Part shown: piece by piece, positions 36,773 through 51,432 of the stretch
How positions within the stretch are numbered: position 1 is the first letter of the stretch
Layout: each line of letters begins with the position of its first letter
Assembly: GCA_018715935.1 (NCBI GenBank)
Contig: DVKR01000018.1
Location: 62,001-126,000 of the forward strand
DNA from: Candidatus Aphodovivens excrementavium
Lineage (GTDB): Bacteria; Actinomycetota; Coriobacteriia; Coriobacteriales; Eggerthellaceae
Direction of reading: 5' to 3'
Length of the DNA stretch: 64,000 nucleotides
Program-made: the position numbers and the translations under genes
Notes under the pieces: generated by a model
The model's database searches: none
Told to the model about the DNA's origin: nothing
Seen by the model: only the letters and a program-made list of their open reading frames with translations

Positions 36773-37567
36773 CTAGGCAAAAACGAAGTTGGTTGCGATA
36801 ACGCAGGCCAACATAAGGGCTATTACGCAAACGGCGATGCCGTCAATGCGGCCGAAGCGCAGAGGGTGCAGCCTCGTGCGTCCTGCCCCGCCGTGATAGC
36901 AGCGCGCCTCCATGGCTCCCGATAGGGTTTCCGCATGGCGAAAAGCGCTGGTAAACAAGGGGACGGTAAGCGAAAGCAGCATGCGCATGCGCCCTTCGGA
37001 AAACCTTGCGCCGCGACTGATTTGGGCGCGGTATATCGTGGTGAGCTCTTGGGCGAACTGCGGCAGGAAGCGCAAGGCGATGCCCATCATCATCGAGAGT
37101 TCGTGAGCCGGAAGACCAAGTTTTGCAAAAGGCTTCAAAAGGTGCTCGAACGCATCGGTGATATCCAGCGTTTGCGTGGTGAGCGTGAGCAGGCTTGCTT
37201 CTAGAAGCAAGAGCAGCAAGCGGCACGAGATAAAAGCCGCTTGGACAAGGCCCGCTTGGCTGATGCAGAAGATCCACCATTGCGCATATACGGTACCGCC
37301 TTGTACGAAAAAGATGTTGAGCAGGGCGGTTATAACCACAATGAAGGCAAGTGGAGCAATGGATCGCAGCGCTTTTGCGAGGGGGATGCGCGAAAGGGCG
37401 AAAAACGCCGCTACGAACACGGCGCACGCTGCAAGCCCCCAAAACGTTTGCGCCACGAAGGTAACCGCCATAAGCGCAAGCGAAAGCACCAGCTTGGCGC
37501 GAGCGTCCATGCGGTGCACCGGGCTCGTTCCCGGCCAATATCTCCCTATGAGCGCGGTGTCTGGCAT
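36773..37567 (-). CDS. ecfT: ECF transporter transmembrane component EcfT
   Basis: This 264-aa membrane protein couples the two ATPases to the substrate-binding S component. It has about five or six helices and the two family coupling motifs, AQISRGARF and AMEARCYHGG, whose Ala-Arg-x-Gly-like segments contact the EcfA grooves. It starts 5 bp after the ecfA2 stop in the same operon. Together with ribU, ecfA1 and ecfA2 it makes a complete riboflavin ECF transporter. The module may also serve other S components elsewhere in the genome. Confidence 0.92.
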   Translation of the reverse strand: MPDTALIGRYWPGTSPVHRMDARAKLVLSLALMAVTFVAQTFWGLAACAVFVAAFFALSRIPLAKALRSIAPLAFIVVITALLNIFFVQGGTVYAQWWIFCISQAGLVQAAFISCRLLLLLLEASLLTLTTQTLDITDAFEHLLKPFAKLGLPAHELSMMMGIALRFLPQFAQELTTIYRAQISRGARFSEGRMRMLLSLTVPLFTSAFRHAETLSGAMEARCYHGGAGRTRLHPLRFGRIDGIAVCVIALMLACVIATNFVFA

Positions 37568-37572
37568 GGTGC

Positions 37573-38616
37573 TTAGCGCTCCTTAGGGTGCGTTGATGTG
37601 GGCTGCGAGGGTACGCTTTGCAGCTGCTGCTCTGCCGCGTCGGCGAGCGGGCTTCTCAGATCGTCTGCGCCGGCGGATCGATGCGGTTTCAGCTGCTGCG
37701 CCAATGCGTCGGCGAGCGAGGCCTCATCGTAGAGCTTTTCGGGCAGCGCAAATCCGGCATGGCGTAGTTCCTCGGCGAACTGCTGGGAGGCGGGGGCGTT
37801 CAACCCAATCTCCCGCAGTTCTTCCACGTGGGAAAACACCTCTTCCGGCACACCGAGCCACCTCGCTTCTCCATGATCGAGCACAAGGATTCTGTCTGCC
37901 AGACGGGCGAGGTCTTCCATGGAGTGCGACGCCATCATGATGGAGAGCCCGTGGCGGTGCAGCTCTTCGATAAGCTCAAGAAACTCTTCTCGCGCCACCG
38001 GGTCAAGGCCGGCAACCGGCTCGTCCATCACCAGCACGCGCGGCTGCATGGCGAGCACGCCCGCAAAGGCAACGCGGCGTTGCTGCCCGCCCGAAAGCTC
38101 GAAGGGGCTGCGCTGCGCTACGTCGGCTTCGTCGAGATGCACCAGGCGCAACGCCTCGCTCACGCGTCGTGCCACCTCTTCGTCGTCGAGTCCGAGGTTT
38201 CGCGGGCCAAAGGCCACGTCCTCGTAGACGGTAGCAGCGAAAAGCTGGTGCTCCGGATACTGGAACACCAGGCCGACGGCGCTCCTGCACGTTTGCGCCG
38301 TCTTTTTGTCGGAGAGATCCGCGCCGTCGAAGAGCACGTGCCCCTCGGCTGGGTGCAAAAGCCCGTTGGCATGCTGAATAAGCGTGCTCTTTCCGCTTCC
38401 CGTGTGGCCGGCCAATCCGAGAAACTCGCCGTCGTCCAAGGTGAAAGACACGTCGTGTAGCGCCCAGACTCTTTTCCCGTCTGAAGGGGCGTTGGCTTGG
38501 GGGGCTTGAGCGTCATGACCGCCTCCAGTGTGGCGCCGGGAGAATGACTTTGCCCGTTTTTTCCGACTCTTTGGGGCGTCGTAGGAATAGCTTACGCATT
38601 CGAATGCAAGCGGCAT
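37573..38616 (-). CDS. ecfA2: ECF transporter ATPase EcfA2
   Basis: The 347-aa ABC ATPase has Walker A GHTGSGKST, Q-loop VFQYPEHQLF, signature LSGGQQRRVAFAG and Walker B VLVMDEPVAGLDP. The DEPxAGLDP version is characteristic of EcfA2. A basic insertion (PKSRKKRAKSFSRR, residues 15-28) precedes the nucleotide domain, and a C-terminal tail of about 60 residues is Gln/Ser-rich. Its start lies 25 bp inside the ecfA1 3' end, so translation is probably coupled. Confidence 0.92.
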   Translation of the reverse strand: MPLAFECVSYSYDAPKSRKKRAKSFSRRHTGGGHDAQAPQANAPSDGKRVWALHDVSFTLDDGEFLGLAGHTGSGKSTLIQHANGLLHPAEGHVLFDGADLSDKKTAQTCRSAVGLVFQYPEHQLFAATVYEDVAFGPRNLGLDDEEVARRVSEALRLVHLDEADVAQRSPFELSGGQQRRVAFAGVLAMQPRVLVMDEPVAGLDPVAREEFLELIEELHRHGLSIMMASHSMEDLARLADRILVLDHGEARWLGVPEEVFSHVEELREIGLNAPASQQFAEELRHAGFALPEKLYDEASLADALAQQLKPHRSAGADDLRSPLADAAEQQLQSVPSQPTSTHPKER

Positions 38617-39644
38617 AGCTCCTCCTTCAACGAGTCGGGGTGAATGTGGACATGCACTGGCACTCCGCGTTTTTGCAGCTCAAGCGAGAGAGTGCAAGCA
38701 AAAGGGACGTCGAGGTTCAAATGCTCGAGCAAATCCGACTGCGTCAGCACTTCTTCGGGCGCGCCGTCGCAGGCCACGCGGCCTCCGTTCAGGATAATGA
38801 CGCGCTGCGCTTGCGCGGCCTCTTCCATGAAATGCGTAATCATGACGATGGTTTTTCCTTCGCGGTGAAGCTGGTGGCACAATTCCATAAGCTTCTTGCG
38901 CCCCTGCGGGTCGAGCATCGAGGTCGCTTCGTCTAGAATCAATATGTCGGGGCGCATGGCAAGCACGCCTGCCACGGCAACTCGTTGTTTCTGCCCGCCC
39001 GAGAGCGCGGCTGTTTCTCGAGTCTGAAAACCCTCAAGCCCCACTTCGCTCAGGCTTTCGTCTACGCGTTGGCGGAGCTCGTTTGCGGGAACCCCCAGGT
39101 TTTCTGGACCGAAAGCAACGTCGTTTTCCACCAGGCTGGCAACAAGCTGGTCGTCGGGGTTTTGAAACACCATGCCCGCCTGGCTTCGAATGACATAGGT
39201 TGATTCTTCGTCGGCGGTGTCGTGCCCCAGCACGGTTACGTTGCCGTGGTCGGGCATCAGCAGGGCATTCATGTGTTTGGCAAGCGTCGATTTGCCCGAG
39301 CCATTGCCTCCCAGGATGGCAACGAACTCTCCACGGGGTATGCGGATGGTTACGTCTTGCAGCACGAACGTGTCTCCGTCGTAGGAAAATGCGAGGTCGT
39401 GAGTTTGCACGGCGGCATCGCGAGAGCCGGGAGCGTCTGCGGGGGCGGCGTTTCGTGGACAGGGGGCGCTGTCTGAAGCGGCAGCGCGCGGATCTGGGGC
39501 GCCGTCTGAAGCGGCAGTGCGCGGATCTGGGGCGCCGTCTGAAGCGGCAGTGCGCGGCTCTGGGACGCTGTCTGGAACGGCAGCGCGCAGGTCGGAATTG
39601 CTCTCGCGTGGTGACATGGACTTTTGGGGCGACGAATCGGGCAT
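38592..39644 (-). CDS. ecfA1: ECF transporter ATPase EcfA1
   Basis: The 350-aa ABC ATPase has Walker A GGNGSGKST, Q-loop VFQNPDDQLV, signature LSGGQKQRVAVAG and Walker B ILILDEATSMLDP, the EcfA1-type form. An unusual N-terminal extension of about 75 residues precedes the ATPase domain and contains four 11-residue repeats of the SDGAPDPRTAA type, matching a 33-bp DNA tandem repeat. It lies 14 bp after ribU and overlaps ecfA2. Confidence 0.92.
   Translation of the reverse strand: MPDSSPQKSMSPRESNSDLRAAVPDSVPEPRTAASDGAPDPRTAASDGAPDPRAAASDSAPCPRNAAPADAPGSRDAAVQTHDLAFSYDGDTFVLQDVTIRIPRGEFVAILGGNGSGKSTLAKHMNALLMPDHGNVTVLGHDTADEESTYVIRSQAGMVFQNPDDQLVASLVENDVAFGPENLGVPANELRQRVDESLSEVGLEGFQTRETAALSGGQKQRVAVAGVLAMRPDILILDEATSMLDPQGRKKLMELCHQLHREGKTIVMITHFMEEAAQAQRVIILNGGRVACDGAPEEVLTQSDLLEHLNLDVPFACTLSLELQKRGVPVHVHIHPDSLKEELCRLHSNA
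39475..39606 (-). repeat. 33-bp tandem repeat in the ecfA1 5' end
   Basis: Four units begin at about 39475, 39508, 39541 and 39574 (plus-strand GAAGCGGCAG-type starts). The exact 33-nt period keeps frame and encodes 11-residue Pro/Asp/Ala repeats. Units 1-3 are nearly identical, suggesting recent expansion. Confidence 0.9.
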
Positions 39645-39658
39645 GGGCTTTCCTTCGG

Positions 39659-40426
39659 CTACCTACCTTTTACCTGCTTTTTTCGCGGGGTGATGAGATT
39701 CGAGATGCTCTTGTATATTGCCAATGTTAGCACGGCGTTGATGACGCCTTTCAACAGATTGAAGGGCACCAGAATCGGCAGGATCATGGCGATTACGGCA
39801 TCGAGGGGAACGCCCAGCCAGCTAGGGGTGATAATCAGGTTGCCGACGATCGCCATAAGCACGGCGCATATCACGCTCACCACTAAGCCCGCGATCGCGC
39901 GGGGGAAGGTGCGCCCGTGGTTGTAGATGACGGCGGCGGGCACCACAAACCCTATAACAACCAAGATGTTCATCACGGCGCCCGAGAAGTCTGCCATAAG
40001 CAGGCCGTGGATAACGGCTCCCGCTATGCCTACCGCCAATCCTCCGCCGGCGCCGAAGGCGAATCCGCACACCATGGCAGGCATGGCGGATGCATCGTAT
40101 TTCAACCAGGTCACGCCAGGAATGAGGGGAAACTCAATAAACGACAGCAGCACGCCGATGGCGCAGAGCAGCGCCATGGTGACAAGTTGGCGCGTCTCCC
40201 ATTTGTTGGTGTTCTTTATGCTGGTGGCTTGTGCGCCGGAGGTCGGCCTGTCGGCGGCTTTGCTGAGAGGCATTTGCGCTCCGGCGGCCGGCTTGTCAGC
40301 GTTTTTGCTACGTGGCGCTTTTGCGTCGTCGGCCCGCTCGGTGGGCGGCTTCGACGGCGCGACGGGCGCGTTTGTGGGCAGGGCGTCTGGTCTTGCCGTG
40401 TCGTCAGCTGATTCGAATTGGCTCAT
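39659..40426 (-). CDS. ribU: Riboflavin ECF transporter S component RibU
   Basis: The 255-aa substrate-binding membrane protein has six helices from about residue 85. Its RibU-family features are FPLIPGVTWLKYDASAMPAMVCGF, the glycine-rich AGAVIHGLLMADFSGAVMN and PFNLLKGVINAVL. The first 80 residues are a low-complexity Ala/Pro/Lys extension. I chose ATG 40426 (AAAGGGGCTTAGC before it) over an in-frame extension through the attenuator. The FMN riboswitch upstream independently supports riboflavin or FMN as substrate. Confidence 0.92.
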   Translation of the reverse strand: MSQFESADDTARPDALPTNAPVAPSKPPTERADDAKAPRSKNADKPAAGAQMPLSKAADRPTSGAQATSIKNTNKWETRQLVTMALLCAIGVLLSFIEFPLIPGVTWLKYDASAMPAMVCGFAFGAGGGLAVGIAGAVIHGLLMADFSGAVMNILVVIGFVVPAAVIYNHGRTFPRAIAGLVVSVICAVLMAIVGNLIITPSWLGVPLDAVIAMILPILVPFNLLKGVINAVLTLAIYKSISNLITPRKKQVKGR

Positions 40427-40480
40427 GCTAAGCCCCTTTCCTGCAGGCGAACGAACAAGGGGCTTGAGTTTTCGGCCTGC

Positions 40481-40521
40481 AAAAGAAAACGAGCCCGTAC
40501 GGATTCTTTCCATACAGGCTC
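40481..40521 (-). terminator. Attenuator terminator of the FMN riboswitch
   Basis: On the minus strand GAGCCTGTATGGA pairs with TCCGTACGGGCTC (allowing G-T pairs) around AAGAA, then GTTTTCTTTT follows. It sits between the aptamer and ribU, the expected position for FMN-dependent premature termination. Confidence 0.85.
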
Positions 40522-40640
40522 ATTGGGTTCGCATGGTTAAAGCACGTAAGGTCTGCGGCGCACGGGCGTCGGACGAGCACACGCGCTGCGCGTGCTTTGC
40601 GACAAACGTGCGCTGCGACAAACGTCGCAACAACGCGAAT

Positions 40641-40797
40641 CTCTGCCTCTTCCATCCGGACTGTAACCGTTGGTCTTGGGTTCTCACCAAAGTCAGCCGA
40701 ATCCGTTTGCATTCTTCAAACGGATTCGGGTCGCGGACTGTCGACGCTGCCTCGCAGGTCGCATCACCGCCAGTGAGGAATTTCACCTCGCCCTGAA
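40641..40797 (-). promoter_or_regulatory. FMN riboswitch (RFN element)
   Basis: Reading the minus strand, the conserved RFN blocks appear in order: GGGCGAGGTGAAATTCC, GGCGGTGAT, the AGTCCGCGACCCG segment, a long variable stem (AATCCGTTTGAAG...CAAACGGATT), TTTGGTGAGAACCCAA, and AGTCCGGATGGAAGAGGCAG. FMN binding should favour the downstream terminator and switch off the riboflavin-uptake operon. Confidence 0.95.
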
Positions 40798-40813
40798 ACA
40801 GAATCCGCCCGCG

Positions 40814-44524: not shown

Positions 44525-44688
44525 CGACGGTGGCGCGTCTGCGCGGATAGCCAAAGAGGCACTGCTTTGAGCCGATGTTGGCGTCCAGGGGAATTGGGGT
44601 GAGAGTCCCCGGCTATACCAGTAACCGTAACTTCGCACGGCCAAGGCGTTTTCGGCTCGCTGCGATCAAGTCGGAATACCTCCCGTCG
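44525..44688 (+). promoter_or_regulatory. Cobalamin riboswitch
   Basis: The core GGGGTGAGAGTCCCCGGCTATACCAGTAACCGTAA and the B12-box-like AAGTCGGAATACCT (44668-44681) match the adenosylcobalamin aptamer consensus. A closing stem CGACGG (44525-44530) pairs with CCGTCG (44683-44688). ACCTC (44678-44682), in the B12 box, is perfectly complementary to GAGGT in the ribosome site (44708-44712), so control is probably at translation start. Confidence 0.88.
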
Positions 44689-44718
44689 GTAGTTTGGCCC
44701 TGGAAGAGAGGTTTTCCT

Positions 44719-47565
44719 ATGCGCGCGATCCCGCACGATGCGGCAGCCCTGTCGCAAACTCACCCGTTAAAAAAGCTAGCGCCGCTCGTCATGAGCGTGC
44801 TGCTTGCGTTCTCGCTTTTGCCCATAGGCGCATTCGCTTATGCGAGTGCCGCGAAAGGCGGTGCAGCAAGCGGGCAGCCGGCGACTTCCGAGACCACGGA
44901 CGCCGGATCCGCCACGCTTGCCCCCGAAGAGCAAGGCGGTGCGGATGGCCAGGGCGGCTGCGCGGTGCAGGGCGGCTGCGAGGAACGCGCTTCGGCAACG
45001 CGGGATGCGGCAGGCGATGCGGAAAGCTCTGACGAAAAGCGTACTGCCTCCGACGAGAGCGCAGGATATTCCGCTGATCAGGGGGGCAATTCAGACAGCA
45101 CGAACGCCTCTCAGGTTCCCGATGAGTCCAGCGGGCTCGCTTCGCAGTCTGGCAATGCCGACGCGCAACAGGAGGCGGACGGCATCATTTGTGCGTCGGC
45201 AGCGGTATACGGCATCGACGCAAACGGAGCCGACCAAACATGGGCGGCAAGCGAAAGCTACGAACTGCCGGAAGGCTCTACGGCGGCAGATCTTTTTGTG
45301 GCAATGCTTGAGAAGACGGGCTTGCAGGCTAACTACGACCCAGACGGGACATACGGTCTTTCTATCAACACCATCACTTCGCCGGTTGATTCCTCGTTTT
45401 CTCCCGGATGGGATGCGGAAACCGGTTGCTATTGGCAGTTTTTCTATAACGGCACGCCTCCTGACCTAGGCCCAAGCAGCGTCGTCTTGAAACCGGGCGA
45501 TACGGTTGTGTGGTACTACTCGGCGTCCGGCGCCGCCCTGCCCGCTTCCGAACCGCCGCTTGCGGAGAGCCCTTCCGACAATCCAGACGACACCGTTTTC
45601 GTTGTGGGACGGATGGTCGGCGTCAATGCCGAGGGTGAAGACGAAGCGTGGGTGCCCTTAGGGTTCACGTCGCTTCCTGCTGGCTCCACGGCAGCAGACC
45701 TTACTGAGTTCATGATAGAGGCAACGGGCATCACTGCCGACATATCCAAAGGGGAGGGGTATTGGTGGCTCAATTCGGTGACTTCTCCGAATGATCCCCA
45801 AAGAACGTTGTCCTACGACCAAACCACGGAGGCGTTCTGGCAGCTTTTCGTCAACGAAGAGCTTTCCACGGTGGGCGCTGCCGATTACGTTCTGCAGTCG
45901 GGCGATTCAATCACGTGGTATTACGGAGCCGACGGCACGATGCCCGGCTCCGATTCGGGCGAAGGCGACGAGGGCGATGACGAGACGGTGGACGGAGTGG
46001 TCGTTGACGAAGACGCCGCTCGTCCTACCGACTGGGAGGCGCAATGGCCGGGGTTCGCCACCGGCGCCGCGCCGGAAGGCGCGCTTACGCCCACGAGCCC
46101 TACAGCGGATGCGTGGCATGTCGAGCTCAAAGACCAAGCGGACTATCTGACCAACGTGTCCGATCCCATCGTGGTCAATGGGCGCGTGTACGTTGCCGCA
46201 GGATCCCAGCTGAAAGCATTGAACGCCTCTACGGGGGCGGAGTTCTCGTCGGCTCAGCTGGTAGCGCCTATCAACCACGTTGCACGCATGGTCTATGCCG
46301 ACGGGATTATCGTGGTTCCTCTTCAGGGAGGTCGTTTGCAGGCGCTGACGGCGGACACCTTGACCACGGTTTGGTGCACCGACGCTCTTCCCGAAATCGA
46401 CGACACGGGAACACAGCAATCTCAAAGCAGCCTCACGGTGTCCGATGGCTATGTGTATTACGGCACCGCCGCTGCGTCCTCCGACGTTTACTACAACGGC
46501 TACTTCACCTGCGTGCGCCTTTCCGACGGCGCGGTGATGTGGTCGAACAAGAACTATCGATCGGGCTTTTACTGGTCGGGGGCTGCCGTTTCCGACGGCA
46601 AGGCGGTCGTAGGCGACAACGAAGGGACGCTCTATGTCTACGACGCATCGACGGGAGACGTTCTCTCGATGCTGAGCTTGGGCTCCTCTGTTCGATCGAC
46701 GGTTGTCGAGGGGTCGCAGTCGGGAACGTTTTTGGTCGTGAGCGACGAGGGGGTTTTGCATAAGATTCGCGTTGACGCGTCGGGCATTGCCCACGAGCTT
46801 GCCTCCGTACAGTTCGGTTCGTCGTCTACGTCCACTCCCGTTGTTGTGGACGGTGCGGTGTATGTAGGCGGAACCTCGTTTGAGAGCGCTCCCAACGCAT
46901 GGGGCGGAACTTCGCTCGGCGGCCTTTTGGCGGTCATAGACGAAGCGACGATGACGGTGGAGCATGCGATAACCACCTACGACGGAGATATGTTGCTTCC
47001 CGCCGATTCGAAGTCGGCGCCGTTGGTGTCGGTGCAATCGACGGGCACCTATGTCTATTTCACCTGCAACGAAGAGCCTGGAGGGGTGTATTGCTACCGC
47101 GTGGGCGATGCCGAGGCAATGCTTCTGTTCGAGCCTCCCGAGGGATATCGGAACTATTCGATGTCGTCGGTGGTGTGCGGCGCCGACGGCACGCTGTACT
47201 ACGTCAACGATTCCGGAGCCCTGTTTGCGATTTCGGGCGATGGCGTTTTCGTAAAACCGGAGACGGCTGAGGAAAAGCTCGCTGGTAACGGAAACAATCT
47301 GCAAACCAAGCCCGCGCTGCTCTCTTCCGCTTCGCGCTCCCTTGCGTCTAGCTCTTTAGACGAATCGTCTGAGGGCGCAGATGACCTGTTGGTGAGCGCG
47401 GCGTCATCCGAGGCGGCAGAGGAACTGGTGGGCGAAACCTCCGCTTCGGCGGAAAACGGGCAGTTCGGCGTGCCTTCCTGGCTTCCTATTGCGGGCATCG
47501 CGGTAGGTGCGTGCGGTTTGGTTGCCGTTGCGGTAGTGGCTGTGCGCCTGGCGCGCCGAGGGTAG
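44719..47565 (+). CDS. Cell-surface protein with two DUF4430 (transcobalamin-like) domains and a PQQ-like beta-propeller
   Basis: The 948-aa secreted and anchored protein has a signal peptide (about residues 18-42) and a low-complexity Ser/Gln/Ala linker. Two DUF4430 domains follow at about 154-272 and 291-408, each with a YWQFFYNG or FWQLFVNE strip and a C-terminal VWYY or TWYY strand. A PQQ/YVTN-type propeller (about 465-850) has repeated DGxVYV/LxALxxxTG blades. A Ser-rich stalk and a membrane helix (919-943) ending RLARRG anchor the C-terminus. DUF4430 resembles the beta domain of transcobalamin and intrinsic factor. With the riboswitch upstream and the ECF genes downstream, it is a predicted corrinoid-capture protein (inference). 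ATG 44719 follows GAGAGG. Confidence 0.85.
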   Translation: MRAIPHDAAALSQTHPLKKLAPLVMSVLLAFSLLPIGAFAYASAAKGGAASGQPATSETTDAGSATLAPEEQGGADGQGGCAVQGGCEERASATRDAAGDAESSDEKRTASDESAGYSADQGGNSDSTNASQVPDESSGLASQSGNADAQQEADGIICASAAVYGIDANGADQTWAASESYELPEGSTAADLFVAMLEKTGLQANYDPDGTYGLSINTITSPVDSSFSPGWDAETGCYWQFFYNGTPPDLGPSSVVLKPGDTVVWYYSASGAALPASEPPLAESPSDNPDDTVFVVGRMVGVNAEGEDEAWVPLGFTSLPAGSTAADLTEFMIEATGITADISKGEGYWWLNSVTSPNDPQRTLSYDQTTEAFWQLFVNEELSTVGAADYVLQSGDSITWYYGADGTMPGSDSGEGDEGDDETVDGVVVDEDAARPTDWEAQWPGFATGAAPEGALTPTSPTADAWHVELKDQADYLTNVSDPIVVNGRVYVAAGSQLKALNASTGAEFSSAQLVAPINHVARMVYADGIIVVPLQGGRLQALTADTLTTVWCTDALPEIDDTGTQQSQSSLTVSDGYVYYGTAAASSDVYYNGYFTCVRLSDGAVMWSNKNYRSGFYWSGAAVSDGKAVVGDNEGTLYVYDASTGDVLSMLSLGSSVRSTVVEGSQSGTFLVVSDEGVLHKIRVDASGIAHELASVQFGSSSTSTPVVVDGAVYVGGTSFESAPNAWGGTSLGGLLAVIDEATMTVEHAITTYDGDMLLPADSKSAPLVSVQSTGTYVYFTCNEEPGGVYCYRVGDAEAMLLFEPPEGYRNYSMSSVVCGADGTLYYVNDSGALFAISGDGVFVKPETAEEKLAGNGNNLQTKPALLSSASRSLASSSLDESSEGADDLLVSAASSEAAEELVGETSASAENGQFGVPSWLPIAGIAVGACGLVAVAVVAVRLARRG

Positions 47566-47574
47566 GCGGTTCGC

Positions 47575-48405
47575 ATGACTGAGAACAAGCGCCCTGCATC
47601 CGCCATCTACGCGGGCATGGAAGAAACCCAGACGCTGCCGAAGCCGACAGGCGCTGAAGGGCATGACGGCGCAGCTTCGTCTGAGCCTGCGGGAAAGACC
47701 CCTTCAACGGGGGCGAAGATTGCCCTTGCCGTTGTCGCGGTTGTTTCGGTAGTGATTATCGCGGTATCGGCGTTTGCGCTGGCGGGCGGCTTCGCTCCAG
47801 CTCAGCAAGATGCCGGCACGGTGACGGCAGGACAGGCTTCCGCCGAAAAGGGCGGCAGCTCAGATTCGGGCGATACGTCTGCGAGCGAGGAGGCGCAATC
47901 CGGTTCCGACGAGGGAATCGCCGGGGGAGAGGATGGCGCGGAGGAGCCCGGCGGGCTTTCCGACAACGACGCTTCCGGGTCGGGCTCTGCCGGCGACGGC
48001 TCCTCTTCGAACGCGGATTCTGCCTCCTCCTCGTCGGGCGCAGCGTCGGACGGTTCCGGGTCGCAGGCGGCTGCATCCGACCAAACGAAGCCCGCTTCCA
48101 TAACCGTGTCGGTCTCAGTCGACTCCAGTGCGAGCGGAACTGCGGTTTCGTACGCGGCGACGGTGACGCTAGAGGAAGGCGCCACGGTCTACGACGCGCT
48201 GGTTGAAAGCGGGATTCCCTACAACGCGCGTTCGTCTCAGTACGGCAACTACGTAGATGCAGTTGGGGGCGTTGAGGAAAACCACGGAGGCACGAGCGGC
48301 GGTTGGACGTACTATGTGAACGGCAGCTACATCAATGCTTCGTGCAGCTCGACCGTTCTCCATGAGGGCGATTCCGTCCAGTGGGTCTACGTGCTGGTGG
48401 AGTGA
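47575..48405 (+). CDS. Membrane-anchored DUF4430 (transcobalamin-like) protein
   Basis: The 276-aa protein has a cytoplasmic N-terminus of about 43 residues and one membrane helix (about 44-68, IALAVVAVVSVVIIAVSAFALAGG). A Ser/Gly/Asp-rich stalk (about 70-170) leads to a C-terminal DUF4430 domain (about 178-276). The domain has ATVYDALVESGIPYNARSSQYGNYVDAVGG, GGWTYYVNG and VQWVYVLVE. It starts 9 bp after the propeller protein and ends overlapping the EcfT gene, so it belongs to the same cobalamin-controlled operon. Probable relay between surface capture and the S component (inference). Confidence 0.85.
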   Translation: MTENKRPASAIYAGMEETQTLPKPTGAEGHDGAASSEPAGKTPSTGAKIALAVVAVVSVVIIAVSAFALAGGFAPAQQDAGTVTAGQASAEKGGSSDSGDTSASEEAQSGSDEGIAGGEDGAEEPGGLSDNDASGSGSAGDGSSSNADSASSSSGAASDGSGSQAAASDQTKPASITVSVSVDSSASGTAVSYAATVTLEEGATVYDALVESGIPYNARSSQYGNYVDAVGGVEENHGGTSGGWTYYVNGSYINASCSSTVLHEGDSVQWVYVLVE

Positions 48406-49277
48406 GCAAGCGCTCCATGAGGTACAACCCCTTTGCAACATATCATCCGGCGGTGGCGTTCGCTTATCTGGCGTGCGCTATCGTCATTTCCATGGCGGCA
48501 ATGCAACCGGTCTTCGTTGCGATTTCCCTTGTGGGCTCGGTTGCCTGCTCGGCCGTGTGCCGAGGGGCGCGTGCCACGGTGCGCTCGTTTGCCTGGATCG
48601 TGCCGCTGGTAGCTGTTGTCACCATCGCCAACCCTCTGTTTTCCGCTTCGGGCATAACCGAGCTGTTCCGCATCGGTCCGCGTGCGGTCTATGCCGAATC
48701 CCTCGTTTTCGGAGCTTGCTCGGGAGGGATGCTCGCAAGCGTGTTTCTTTGGTTTGCGTGCTATTCCGCGTGCATGGACAGCGCGAACTCCATGGCGCTG
48801 TTTGGCAACTCTTTGCCGGTGGTTTCGCTTATGGTGTCGCAGGTGATGCGGCTTGTCCCCCAGTTCGTGTTGCGCGGGCAAAACATCGCAGCTGCTCAGG
48901 ACGCGGTAAGCGCGGCATCTCCCGCAACTAGAAGACAACGGCTCGGCGGACGTTTCCGCATCGTGTCGGTGCTGATGAGCTGGGGCATGGAAGACGGCAT
49001 CGAGCGCAGCGACGCCATGCGGGCGCGCGGATACGACTGCGGCGCCAAGCGCACTACGTACAAACGCTATGCGTTCGGACGCGCTGACGCTTTTGCCATG
49101 GCGGTGATTGCGGTGTTGGCGGCGGCATCGGGCGCCTGTGCCGCAGCGCTGTGCCTGCGCTTTGCGTTTTATCCCACGCTGTCGGGCTGGGGCGCGTGGT
49201 GGGGCTATGTTCCCTATGCCCTCCTGATGGCGGTGCCGGGCGTTCTCCGCTTCAAGGAGTGGTTGGTGTGGCGATAA
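48402..49277 (+). CDS. EcfT/CbiQ-type transmembrane component of the cobalamin ECF transporter
   Basis: The 291-aa integral membrane protein has about six helices. The EcfT coupling segments appear as VLRGQNIAAAQDAVSAAS and SDAMRARGYDCGAKRTTY, the second being the usual Ala-Arg-Gly strip. I chose GTG 48402, which overlaps the upstream TGA as GTGA; ATG 48417 is an alternative. It links the fused ATPase and S component encoded directly downstream. This T component is clearly distinct from the riboflavin-operon EcfT. Confidence 0.87.
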   Translation: MSKRSMRYNPFATYHPAVAFAYLACAIVISMAAMQPVFVAISLVGSVACSAVCRGARATVRSFAWIVPLVAVVTIANPLFSASGITELFRIGPRAVYAESLVFGACSGGMLASVFLWFACYSACMDSANSMALFGNSLPVVSLMVSQVMRLVPQFVLRGQNIAAAQDAVSAASPATRRQRLGGRFRIVSVLMSWGMEDGIERSDAMRARGYDCGAKRTTYKRYAFGRADAFAMAVIAVLAAASGACAAALCLRFAFYPTLSGWGAWWGYVPYALLMAVPGVLRFKEWLVWR

Positions 49278-50734
49278 TCGATGTCTCCCACTTTTCGTTT
49301 TCTTATGCGCCTGGGCAGAGTCGGCAACGCTCCGTGCTTTCCGACGTTTCGTTTCAGGTGGAAGAAGGAGAGTTCTGCGTTTTGGTGGGGCCGACCGGTT
49401 GCGGAAAAACGACTCTGTTGCGCTCGCTCAAACCGGAGCTTTCCCCCGTGGGCACTCGCGCCGGGTCCATTTCTGTAATGGGGCTTCCCCTGTTTGAGGG
49501 CGGCGAGCTGGTGCCTGCCGATCGGGGAGGCATCGACCGAAAAACGTCGGCAGCTGCCATTGGGTTTGTGATGCAGGATCCGGCGATGCAGATCGTGTGC
49601 GACACCGTGTGGCACGAGCTTGCGTTCGGCCTTGAGAATGTGGGCACGCCGCAAGAGGAAATGCGGCGCCGCGTTGCCGAAGTCGCGCATTTCTTCGGCA
49701 TCGAGCCCTGGGTGCGTCAGTCTACAGAGCACCTTTCTGGCGGGCAGATGCAGCTGGTGAACCTCGCGGCGGTTTTGGCGCTGCGCCCGCGCCTCATCCT
49801 TCTGGACGAGCCTACCGCTCAGCTTGATCCGAACGCGCGCAAGCGGTTCCTGTTTTTGCTGGCGCGCGTCAATCGCGAACTGGGACTTACGGTGGTTATG
49901 GCAACGCATGCGCCCGAAGACGTGTCCGAGTACGCCGCCCGCCGCATAGACCTAGGAGACATCGGCGAGCTGGGCTCGCGCGACGATCTTTGCGAATCGC
50001 TGAGGCCGCGCTGGGCAGCCCGCCGCTCTTCGCTCAAAGCCCAGCCCGCGCTTCAGGCGAAAGAGGCGAGTTTTCGCTATGCGCGCGAAGACGCATGGGT
50101 GCTGCGCGGCTTGGACGTTTCGGTGGCGGCGGGCAGCGTGCACGCCATCGTTGGCGGCAACGGGAGCGGCAAATCGACCTTGCTGAAGCTGCTGGCGGGG
50201 GTGGAAAAACCGCAACGCGGCAAGATCGTAAACCGCCTCGCCGCGTCTCAGGCGTATTTGCCGCAAGATCCCAAGGCGCTTTTTGTGTGCGACAGCGTTG
50301 CAGAAGAGCTTGCCGAGTGGCGCCGCCGCTGCGGCTATTCCGAAGCGGACGAGCAGGTGGCGCTTGAGCGCTTCGGGCTGGCGGATCATGCGTTTCAGCA
50401 CCCCTACGATTTGTCGGGCGGGCAGCGCCAAAAGCTCGCCTTGGCAAAGCTGCTGCTTACCGACCCGCAACTTTTGTTCCTCGACGAGCCCACTAAGGGG
50501 CTCGACCCGGCCTCCTGCGCCGAAGAGGCGCGGCTTGTACGCGCACTGGCGGATGAAGGAAGAACGGTCGTGATGGTTACGCACGACCTCGACTTTGCCC
50601 TTGCTGCCGCTGATGTGGTGTCGATGGTGTTCGACGGGCAGCTCGCGTGCACCGAGCCGGTGGAGAGCTTCTTTGCAAACAACATCGTGTACCGTCCCAA
50701 TGGCCGATCGCGGCTTTTCGGAGCCTTGCTATGA
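49268..50734 (+). CDS. Fused tandem ECF ATPase (EcfA-EcfA')
   Basis: The 488-aa protein contains two ABC ATPase domains. Domain 1 has GPTGCGKTTLLRSL, LSGGQMQLVNLAA and LILLDEPTAQLDP. Domain 2 has GGNGSGKSTLLKLL, LSGGQRQKLALAK and LLFLDEPTKGLDP. Both Walker A lysines and both signatures look intact, so both sites may be active. GTG 49268 follows AAGGAG at good spacing and overlaps the ecfT stop by 10 bases. An in-frame extension to 49151 lies inside ecfT and is rejected. Confidence 0.93.
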   Translation: MAIIDVSHFSFSYAPGQSRQRSVLSDVSFQVEEGEFCVLVGPTGCGKTTLLRSLKPELSPVGTRAGSISVMGLPLFEGGELVPADRGGIDRKTSAAAIGFVMQDPAMQIVCDTVWHELAFGLENVGTPQEEMRRRVAEVAHFFGIEPWVRQSTEHLSGGQMQLVNLAAVLALRPRLILLDEPTAQLDPNARKRFLFLLARVNRELGLTVVMATHAPEDVSEYAARRIDLGDIGELGSRDDLCESLRPRWAARRSSLKAQPALQAKEASFRYAREDAWVLRGLDVSVAAGSVHAIVGGNGSGKSTLLKLLAGVEKPQRGKIVNRLAASQAYLPQDPKALFVCDSVAEELAEWRRRCGYSEADEQVALERFGLADHAFQHPYDLSGGQRQKLALAKLLLTDPQLLFLDEPTKGLDPASCAEEARLVRALADEGRTVVMVTHDLDFALAAADVVSMVFDGQLACTEPVESFFANNIVYRPNGRSRLFGALL

Positions 50735-51432
50735 GCGGTAGCGGGCGGCGTCGGGCCGCTTTCGTCGCGGAGCTTGTGGCGATTGTTGGCGTTCCGGTTG
50801 TGCTGGTAGCGTGCGTGGCGCTTCGCTTTCGACAGACTGCAGTGCTTTCTTTAGTGGTTGTGCTGGGCTGCTTGGTGGTGTTTTTCGCTGGGTACGAGCA
50901 CTCGCGCCCGCGGCTGCGCGATACCATGCCGGTTGCGGTGCTTGCCGCGCTTGCGGCTGCCGGGCGCATCCTCTTCGCGCCTGTCCCCAGCTTTAAGCCG
51001 GTATCGGCTATTGCCATCATCGCCGGCGCGGCGTTTGGAAGGCGAAGCGGATTCTTGGTTGGCGCGCTCGCGGCGCTCGTGTCTAATTTCTTCTTCGGGC
51101 AAGGGCCGTGGACCCCTTGGCAGATGTATGCATGGGGCCTTATCGGCTATCTTGGCGGGCTGCTGGCGCAAGCGGGGTTGTTCCGCAGCAGGGCGGTGCT
51201 GGTGGGCTACGGCTTTTTGTCTGGGCCGTTGTACGGCGTTGCCATCAATCTGTGGAGCATCGTCGGGTTCTACCATCCCGAAACGTTCGCGCAGGCGGCG
51301 TTGATCTATGCCGCGGCTTTGCCTTTCGACGTGCTGCACGGCGTGGCGACGGCGGTGTTTTTGCTCGTGCTGTTTGTTCCCTGGCAGCGCAAGCTTTCGC
51401 GCATCAAAGACAAGTTCGGCCTTCAAACGTGA
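50731..51432 (+). CDS. ECF transporter S component, predicted cobalamin/corrinoid binder
   Basis: The 233-aa membrane protein has about six helices and the family strip PVSAIAIIAGAAFGRRSGFLVGALAALVSNFFFGQGPWTPWQMYAWGLIGYL. This strip is typical of ECF S components found with cobalamin riboswitches and DUF4430 proteins. ATG 50731 overlaps the ATPase stop as ATGA. Substrate assignment rests on the cobalamin riboswitch and neighbours. No terminator is seen in the 169 bp before glpK, which contain a GCGACTCGCTCAA direct repeat (about 51466 and 51529). Confidence 0.87.
   Translation: MSGSGRRRAAFVAELVAIVGVPVVLVACVALRFRQTAVLSLVVVLGCLVVFFAGYEHSRPRLRDTMPVAVLAALAAAGRILFAPVPSFKPVSAIAIIAGAAFGRRSGFLVGALAALVSNFFFGQGPWTPWQMYAWGLIGYLGGLLAQAGLFRSRAVLVGYGFLSGPLYGVAINLWSIVGFYHPETFAQAALIYAAALPFDVLHGVATAVFLLVLFVPWQRKLSRIKDKFGLQT

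Follow-up and report, generated by a model that had tools for sequence, protein, structure and literature searches.

A riboswitch-marked operon of Candidatus Aphodovivens excrementavium predicted to take up corrinoids through a surface propeller protein and a CbrT-like ECF transporter

Introduction

How might a monoderm bacterium bring corrinoids from beyond its wall to an importer in its membrane? B12 acquisition by many gut bacteria is still described as an open question (PMC6593275). A locus of Candidatus Aphodovivens excrementavium (Coriobacteriia, Eggerthellaceae), within a stretch of 64,000 nucleotides of contig DVKR01000018.1 here called the window, raises it with a series of genes, marked by a riboswitch, that would lead from a surface receptor to an importer. 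A reading of the letters alone, the original prediction, had seen there a cobalamin aptamer, an anchored surface protein (P1) with two DUF4430 domains fused to a propeller, a second DUF4430 protein (P2) and a complete ECF transporter, and had taken the whole for a capture, relay and import chain for corrinoids in which the propeller fusion had no obvious precedent.

There is in fact a precedent. The available sections of Burroughs et al. 2007 (PMC1796856) describe the fusion of an SLBB (DUF4430-type) domain to a beta-propeller in a Clostridium, with a second paralogous SLBB protein and operons of CbiO/CbiQ type, and predict B12 scavenging; the outline of the system, propeller fusion and second paralogue included, was thus already predicted at that time. 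A literature search, with most subscription journals outside its scope, found no experimental work on bacterial DUF4430, and in the literature searched the 2007 prediction appears still to be without experimental follow-up. New here are the riboswitch linkage seen in many genomes, the resemblance of the S component to CbrT, the recognition that the propeller is an accessory layer that can be separated, and its comparison with BtuG.

Operon layout and leader

All the elements named in the original prediction are present, as judged from open reading frames, Rfam and Pfam matches and family profiles (Table 1), and follow one another 5' to 3' as riboswitch, P1, P2, EcfT, fused EcfAA' and S component with tight or overlapping starts. 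P1 begins about 30 bases 3' of the aptamer. The GTG start of EcfT overlaps the stop of P2 (48402 against 48405), and the overlapping starts claimed for the ECF genes recur at EcfAA' (49268 against 49277) and the S component (50731 against 50734). Every constituent of an ECF transporter is present, with EcfT, a pair of ABC ATPase domains and the S component.

Table 1. Features of the P1 operon, in positions of the window
Feature	Position	Strand	Evidence
AdoCbl-II riboswitch aptamer, RF01689	44572-44689	+	39.4 bits; RF01689 also directly upstream at no fewer than 34 of 40 related loci
Possible expression platform: ACCUCC (44678-44683) pairing with Shine-Dalgarno-like AGAGAGG (44705-44711)	44678-44711	+	sequence and MFE fold
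P1 surface protein, 948 aa	44719-47565	+	ORF, Pfam and predicted structure
P1, DUF4430 / transcobalamin-like beta-grasp domain 1	45175-45558	+	PF14478; beta-beta-alpha-hairpin-beta-beta predicted, high pLDDT
P1, DUF4430 domain 2	45586-45948	+	PF14478; weak profile match to transcobalamin-1
P1, beta-propeller	46024-47244	+	PF13360; structurally nearest to BamB and designed PQQ-like propellers
P1, C-terminal transmembrane anchor	47479-47541	+	sequence; basic tail
P2, DUF4430 protein, 276 aa	47575-48405	+	ORF and Pfam
P2, DUF4430 domain	48178-48390		Pfam E=2e-13
EcfT transmembrane coupling protein	48402-49277	+	family profile against solved EcfT chains
Fused EcfAA' ATPase, 488 aa	49268-50734	+	two ABC_tran stretches
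S component, CbrT-like	50731-51432	+	CbrT 6fnp_A E=6.8e-16; S-component fold

The aptamer, lying in the leader of a B12-related gene, matches the full RF01689 model (1-81) at a score above the curated gathering score of 36.5 bits (E=7e-6 in the search of the window, 4e-8 in a local search), and is the only AdoCbl-II match of the source genome. From this family match the leader is predicted to respond to adenosylcobalamin. The pairing of ACCUCC with the Shine-Dalgarno-like sequence faintly suggests translational control, faintly because the whole leader folds no better in energy than shuffled sequences do (z=+1.7).

Recurrence of the arrangement

The operon arrangement is far beyond chance, since it recurs across Coriobacteriia. 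P1 is matched in 46 of the 138 genomes of the family. RF01689 lies directly upstream of the propeller gene in all but a few of the 40 family loci examined, the remainder including one where the match falls inside the stop-to-stop frame (L052), one that ends at a contig end (L066) and one with a match at chance level (L050); in most of the 40, P1 is followed by P2, EcfT, EcfAA' and the S component. The S component itself has a broader spread (111/138 genomes), and it is present in every one of the 42 genomes with a clear propeller gene. On the same strand and within 13 kb upstream of it RF01689 is found at 60 of 110 loci, against an expectation of about 0.2% per locus. Many relatives keep the riboswitch, P2, EcfT, EcfAA' and the S component with no propeller; among such loci the core is P2-EcfT-EcfAA'-S, some having a different DUF4430 protein in front, and some consist of ECF genes alone. 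At L161:8101-10398 and L166:6990-9473, for instance, the P1 position before P2-EcfT-EcfAA'-S is occupied by another DUF4430 protein (frames of 765 and 827 aa, with no propeller detected).

Further afield, P1 is matched at E<=1e-20 in 153 of 398 sampled Coriobacteriia genomes. The loci that could be named belong to Collinsella, Olsenella, Gordonibacter, Slackia and Eggerthella, and to a few Clostridia. P1 and P2 of Collinsella often have no adjacent ECF genes; in the six loci with P1 and P2 only that were checked a riboswitch is still upstream, above threshold in two and below it in four of Collinsella type (E=0.002-0.1). The survey of DUF4430-propeller fusions proposed with the original prediction finds fusions across Coriobacteriia, and stand-alone propellers in several Clostridia. 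Two Gordonibacter loci (L061, L062) have, upstream of their propeller gene, two AdoCbl-II matches in tandem with a spacing of about 250 bases, and a relative of the same genus (G017) has, about 26 kb from its complete operon on the same contig, a second riboswitch-P1-P2 copy (L039) with a 2246-aa frame and no ECF genes.

The transporter and its substrate

EcfT has no Pfam or NCBIfam match, and is recognized by the comparison of its family profile with solved EcfT chains (E=3e-11 to 2e-9); each of the two ABC domains of the fused EcfAA' carries a Walker A motif and LSGGQ. What does the transporter carry? The strongest new evidence on this is the CbrT-like nature of the S component. A profile built from 28 relatives, with a mean column identity of 63%, has its best PDB sequence match in CbrT (6fnp_A, E=6.8e-16), with other solved S components at 0.0014 (4hzu_S) and 0.3 (RibU), so that CbrT is the closest of the solved S components by sequence. 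CbrT transports cobalamin and cobinamide (PMC5997447), and from the relationship the S component is predicted to bind and transport the same two. Its model (pLDDT 88) has the S-component fold with two extra N-terminal transmembrane helices. Foldseek matches are weak, favour PanT and RibU, do not rank CbrT and do not separate the substrate families, for which reason the argument on specificity rests on sequence and context.

Generic annotation would point elsewhere: Pfam gives the riboflavin-type PF07155 (E=1e-10) and DUF6580 (E=5e-11) for the S component, and from PF07155, or from CbiO/CbiQ labels, one might suppose import of another vitamin or of a metal, riboflavin or cobalt. This we regard as very improbable given a cobalamin riboswitch in front of the operon, a sequence profile that matches CbrT far better than any other solved S component and, at 36773-40804, a separate RibU-like gene with an FMN riboswitch and an ECF module of its own; riboflavin or cobalt import was rejected on the CbrT match and on this separate module. 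The latter, the second ECF module of the window and on the minus strand, has the FMN riboswitch (91.8 bits) followed by the RibU-like S component, two unfused EcfA-like ATPases and an EcfT-like gene, the names being given by eye. In G057, G058, G069, G070, G086 and G131 one stop codon lies inside the S-component frame, which may be a frame-boundary stop, decay or a sequencing error.

ECF-CbrT of Lactobacillus delbrueckii (PMC5997447) has in common with the present operon the sequence family of its S component, an EcfT and two ATPase domains. CbrT draws on a general ECF module, and the paper describes no surface receptors for it; the present operon has a dedicated module, a fusion of the two ATPases and an S component longer by its two extra N-terminal helices.

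Is there a need for such a transporter? The source genome (G000, 2.08 Mb) gives no match to CbiC, so corrin-ring synthesis is probably missing, and it encodes a corrinoid-binding protein whose gene neighbours a methyltransferase-like one, besides another protein that has a B12-binding domain; the enzymes were named by eye. Corrinoid capture, relay and import, as originally proposed, is well supported because riboswitch linkage, a CbrT-like S component, co-occurrence and the absence of CbiC all bear on it, and the operon as a whole very probably serves dedicated uptake of corrinoids (vitamin B12 or other cobamides) in a monoderm B12 auxotroph. Another B12 route is possible, since the genome has one FecCD permease with an ABC ATPase (L077, contig 7), which might import haem, a siderophore or, as a second system, corrinoids.

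The DUF4430 domains of P1 and P2

P1 consists, from its N-terminus, of a signal peptide (about residues 1-45), an acidic linker, two DUF4430 domains, an eight-bladed propeller of BamB/PQQ type, an acidic stalk and a C-terminal transmembrane helix. Its description as anchored is right in respect of that helix with its basic tail; there is no visible LPXTG motif. Pfam finds DUF4430 twice (E=3e-19) and the PQQ_2 propeller (E=2e-15), and the model of residues 150-860 has a pLDDT of 89 and a pTM of 0.67, with linkers between the domains of low confidence and no fixed clamp of DUF4430 and propeller. P2 has an N-terminal signal anchor, a Ser/Gly-rich linker and a single DUF4430 domain; this and the two of P1 are the only three in the source genome.

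In the model each DUF4430 domain of P1 shows two strands and a helix, after which come a hairpin of two strands and then more strands, and this beta-grasp with a beta-hairpin insert after the helix, together with PF14478 matches in both P1 and P2, is that of the transcobalamin-like SLBB (DUF4430) clade, agreeing with the topology in the available sections of Burroughs et al. (PMC1796856). The hairpin insert carries an aromatic residue, invariant for P2 in the alignment of relatives. P1 had been called double transcobalamin-like, and structure prediction against transcobalamin suggested as a check. The part of this that stands is the clade topology, recovered in the P1 model; homology at the sequence level is marginal, the profile matches to transcobalamin-1 (E=0.11 and 0.35) centring on a YW...NGE...GAG...GD motif, and there is no alpha/alpha toroid in P1 or P2 by Pfam, nor in the P1 model. 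It is this toroid that completes the transcobalamin binding site. DUF4430 resembles the C-terminal beta domain of transcobalamin, haptocorrin and intrinsic factor, whereas the combination of toroid and beta domain that characterizes these proteins is not found in P1 or P2.

The propeller

The least understood part of the P1 operon is the propeller. Is it decoration on DUF4430, or does it have a part of its own in corrinoid uptake? Eight blades are counted from the DSSP string of the model, and the net charge is -30 over 407 residues, a figure not controlled for the general acidity of the bacterium's secreted proteins. Among the best 50 structural matches the nearest are BamB, designed PQQ-like, quinoprotein and similar propellers, and BtuG is absent from those 50, so neither blade number nor structural neighbours place it with the seven-bladed BtuG-related propellers. 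Mean conservation is higher in the propeller (0.53) than in the DUF4430 domains (0.36 and 0.44), with near-invariant aromatic or polar residues at W552, Q567, YYW617-619, F781, N784 and ND830-831.

The notion that this propeller occurs solely as a DUF4430 fusion was rejected. P1 homologues in Ca. Soleaferrea (L151), in Oscillospiraceae (L140, L157) and at L145 and L152 are made up of a signal peptide, the propeller and a tail; they lack DUF4430 and have a C-terminal anchor of their own, and their genes are followed by one for a lipoprotein-like DUF4430 protein and usually by ECF genes. RF00174 lies just upstream of the propeller gene in 10 of 10 distant loci (Clostridia and others), at 75-88 bits. 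DUF4430 copies per propeller frame go from none (12 of 122) to 5, a maximum to be read as at least 5 in that the custom profiles used may undercount and some frames end at contig ends. The emphasis of 'double transcobalamin-like' is therefore misplaced, because the DUF4430 copies vary in number and the propeller of some Clostridia is secreted as a protein by itself. Because it is separable, standing alone behind a strong cobalamin riboswitch while DUF4430 number varies, the propeller would seem to be no mere decoration and to have its own role in corrinoid uptake.

The favoured reading is that the propeller is an accessory corrinoid receptor, like BtuG in function and of another propeller family. 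It would contact the corrinoid, most likely by binding it directly, direct binding itself being given only a little less than an even chance. If so, and this larger proposal is a tentative one that we put somewhat below even, the propeller would represent a second and independent origin, in the BamB/PQQ lineage, of high-affinity corrinoid receptors at the cell surface. This class, the counterpart of BtuG in Gram-positive bacteria, would be widespread in Coriobacteriia and in some Clostridia, and would work with DUF4430 domains that pass corrinoid on to the CbrT-like ECF importer.

The propeller might instead be a scaffold, a wall- or partner-binding module that positions DUF4430 and makes no corrinoid contact, in an operon of otherwise the same function. 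For extra domains surface tethering was suggested in the available part of Burroughs et al. (PMC1796856), the nearest folds include BamB, a protein-protein scaffold, and many relatives have the ECF system and no propeller; we nonetheless think a scaffold unlikely, in the face of a propeller more conserved than DUF4430 and of clostridial propeller chains that have no DUF4430 to position, a cobalamin riboswitch in front and their own C-terminal anchor. Might it rather close over a DUF4430-held corrinoid in place of the toroid of transcobalamin? The missing toroid, the presence of DUF4430 and propeller on one chain or in adjacent genes, and a strong negative charge like that of BtuG (PMC10404256) would suit such a clamp, which is yet quite improbable with flexible, low-confidence linkers in the P1 model and a variable number of DUF4430 domains; a rigid clamp is not borne out by the model. 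The profile matches to PQQ_2 and BamB could suggest a PQQ-dependent enzyme or a true BamB, a suggestion that hardly merits credence: TIGR03300 gives 44 bits against an equivalog cut-off of 285, on which a true BamB was rejected, and a quinoprotein dehydrogenase was rejected as the catalytic propeller PF01011 is not matched by Pfam in P1. BamB would moreover call for an outer membrane, and none is expected in the Coriobacteriia lineage of the source genome.

With the propeller as accessory receptor, the route is best read as follows. At low intracellular adenosylcobalamin the AdoCbl-II riboswitch would permit expression of the operon. P1, with its C-terminal helix as membrane anchor and acidic linkers to raise it, would capture corrinoid at the surface, beyond or within the wall, with propeller and DUF4430. 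P2, its DUF4430 domain close to the membrane, would then pass the corrinoid to the CbrT-like S component, from which EcfT and the fused EcfAA' would drive release inside.

BtuG of Bacteroides (PMC6143338, PMC10404256) and the P1 propeller are both acidic beta-propellers of the cell surface whose genes accompany those of a B12 importer in gut bacteria, the BtuG2 receptor being strongly acidic with a net charge of -18 (PMC10404256). BtuG, with seven blades, is a lipoprotein of the outer membrane and forms a complex with BtuB, whereas the P1 propeller has eight blades, resembles BamB, is anchored in the membrane of a monoderm, is usually part of a DUF4430 fusion and is a putative binder of corrinoid. 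With the operons of Burroughs et al. 2007 (PMC1796856), as they appear in its available sections, there are in common secreted DUF4430 proteins, a propeller fusion, a DUF4430 paralogue, genes of CbiO/CbiQ type and predicted B12 scavenging, the likeness of the Clostridium propeller to that of P1 being by description alone. Theirs is, in those sections, a prediction that brings in no riboswitch or S-component evidence, whereas here the propeller proves separable and the S component can be connected with CbrT. That separability opens the receptor question to direct tests on purified domains. One further propeller protein, at L147:5590-7950, has a C-terminal part that by eye resembles cell-wall-binding repeats of CWB2 type, with no membrane anchor there.
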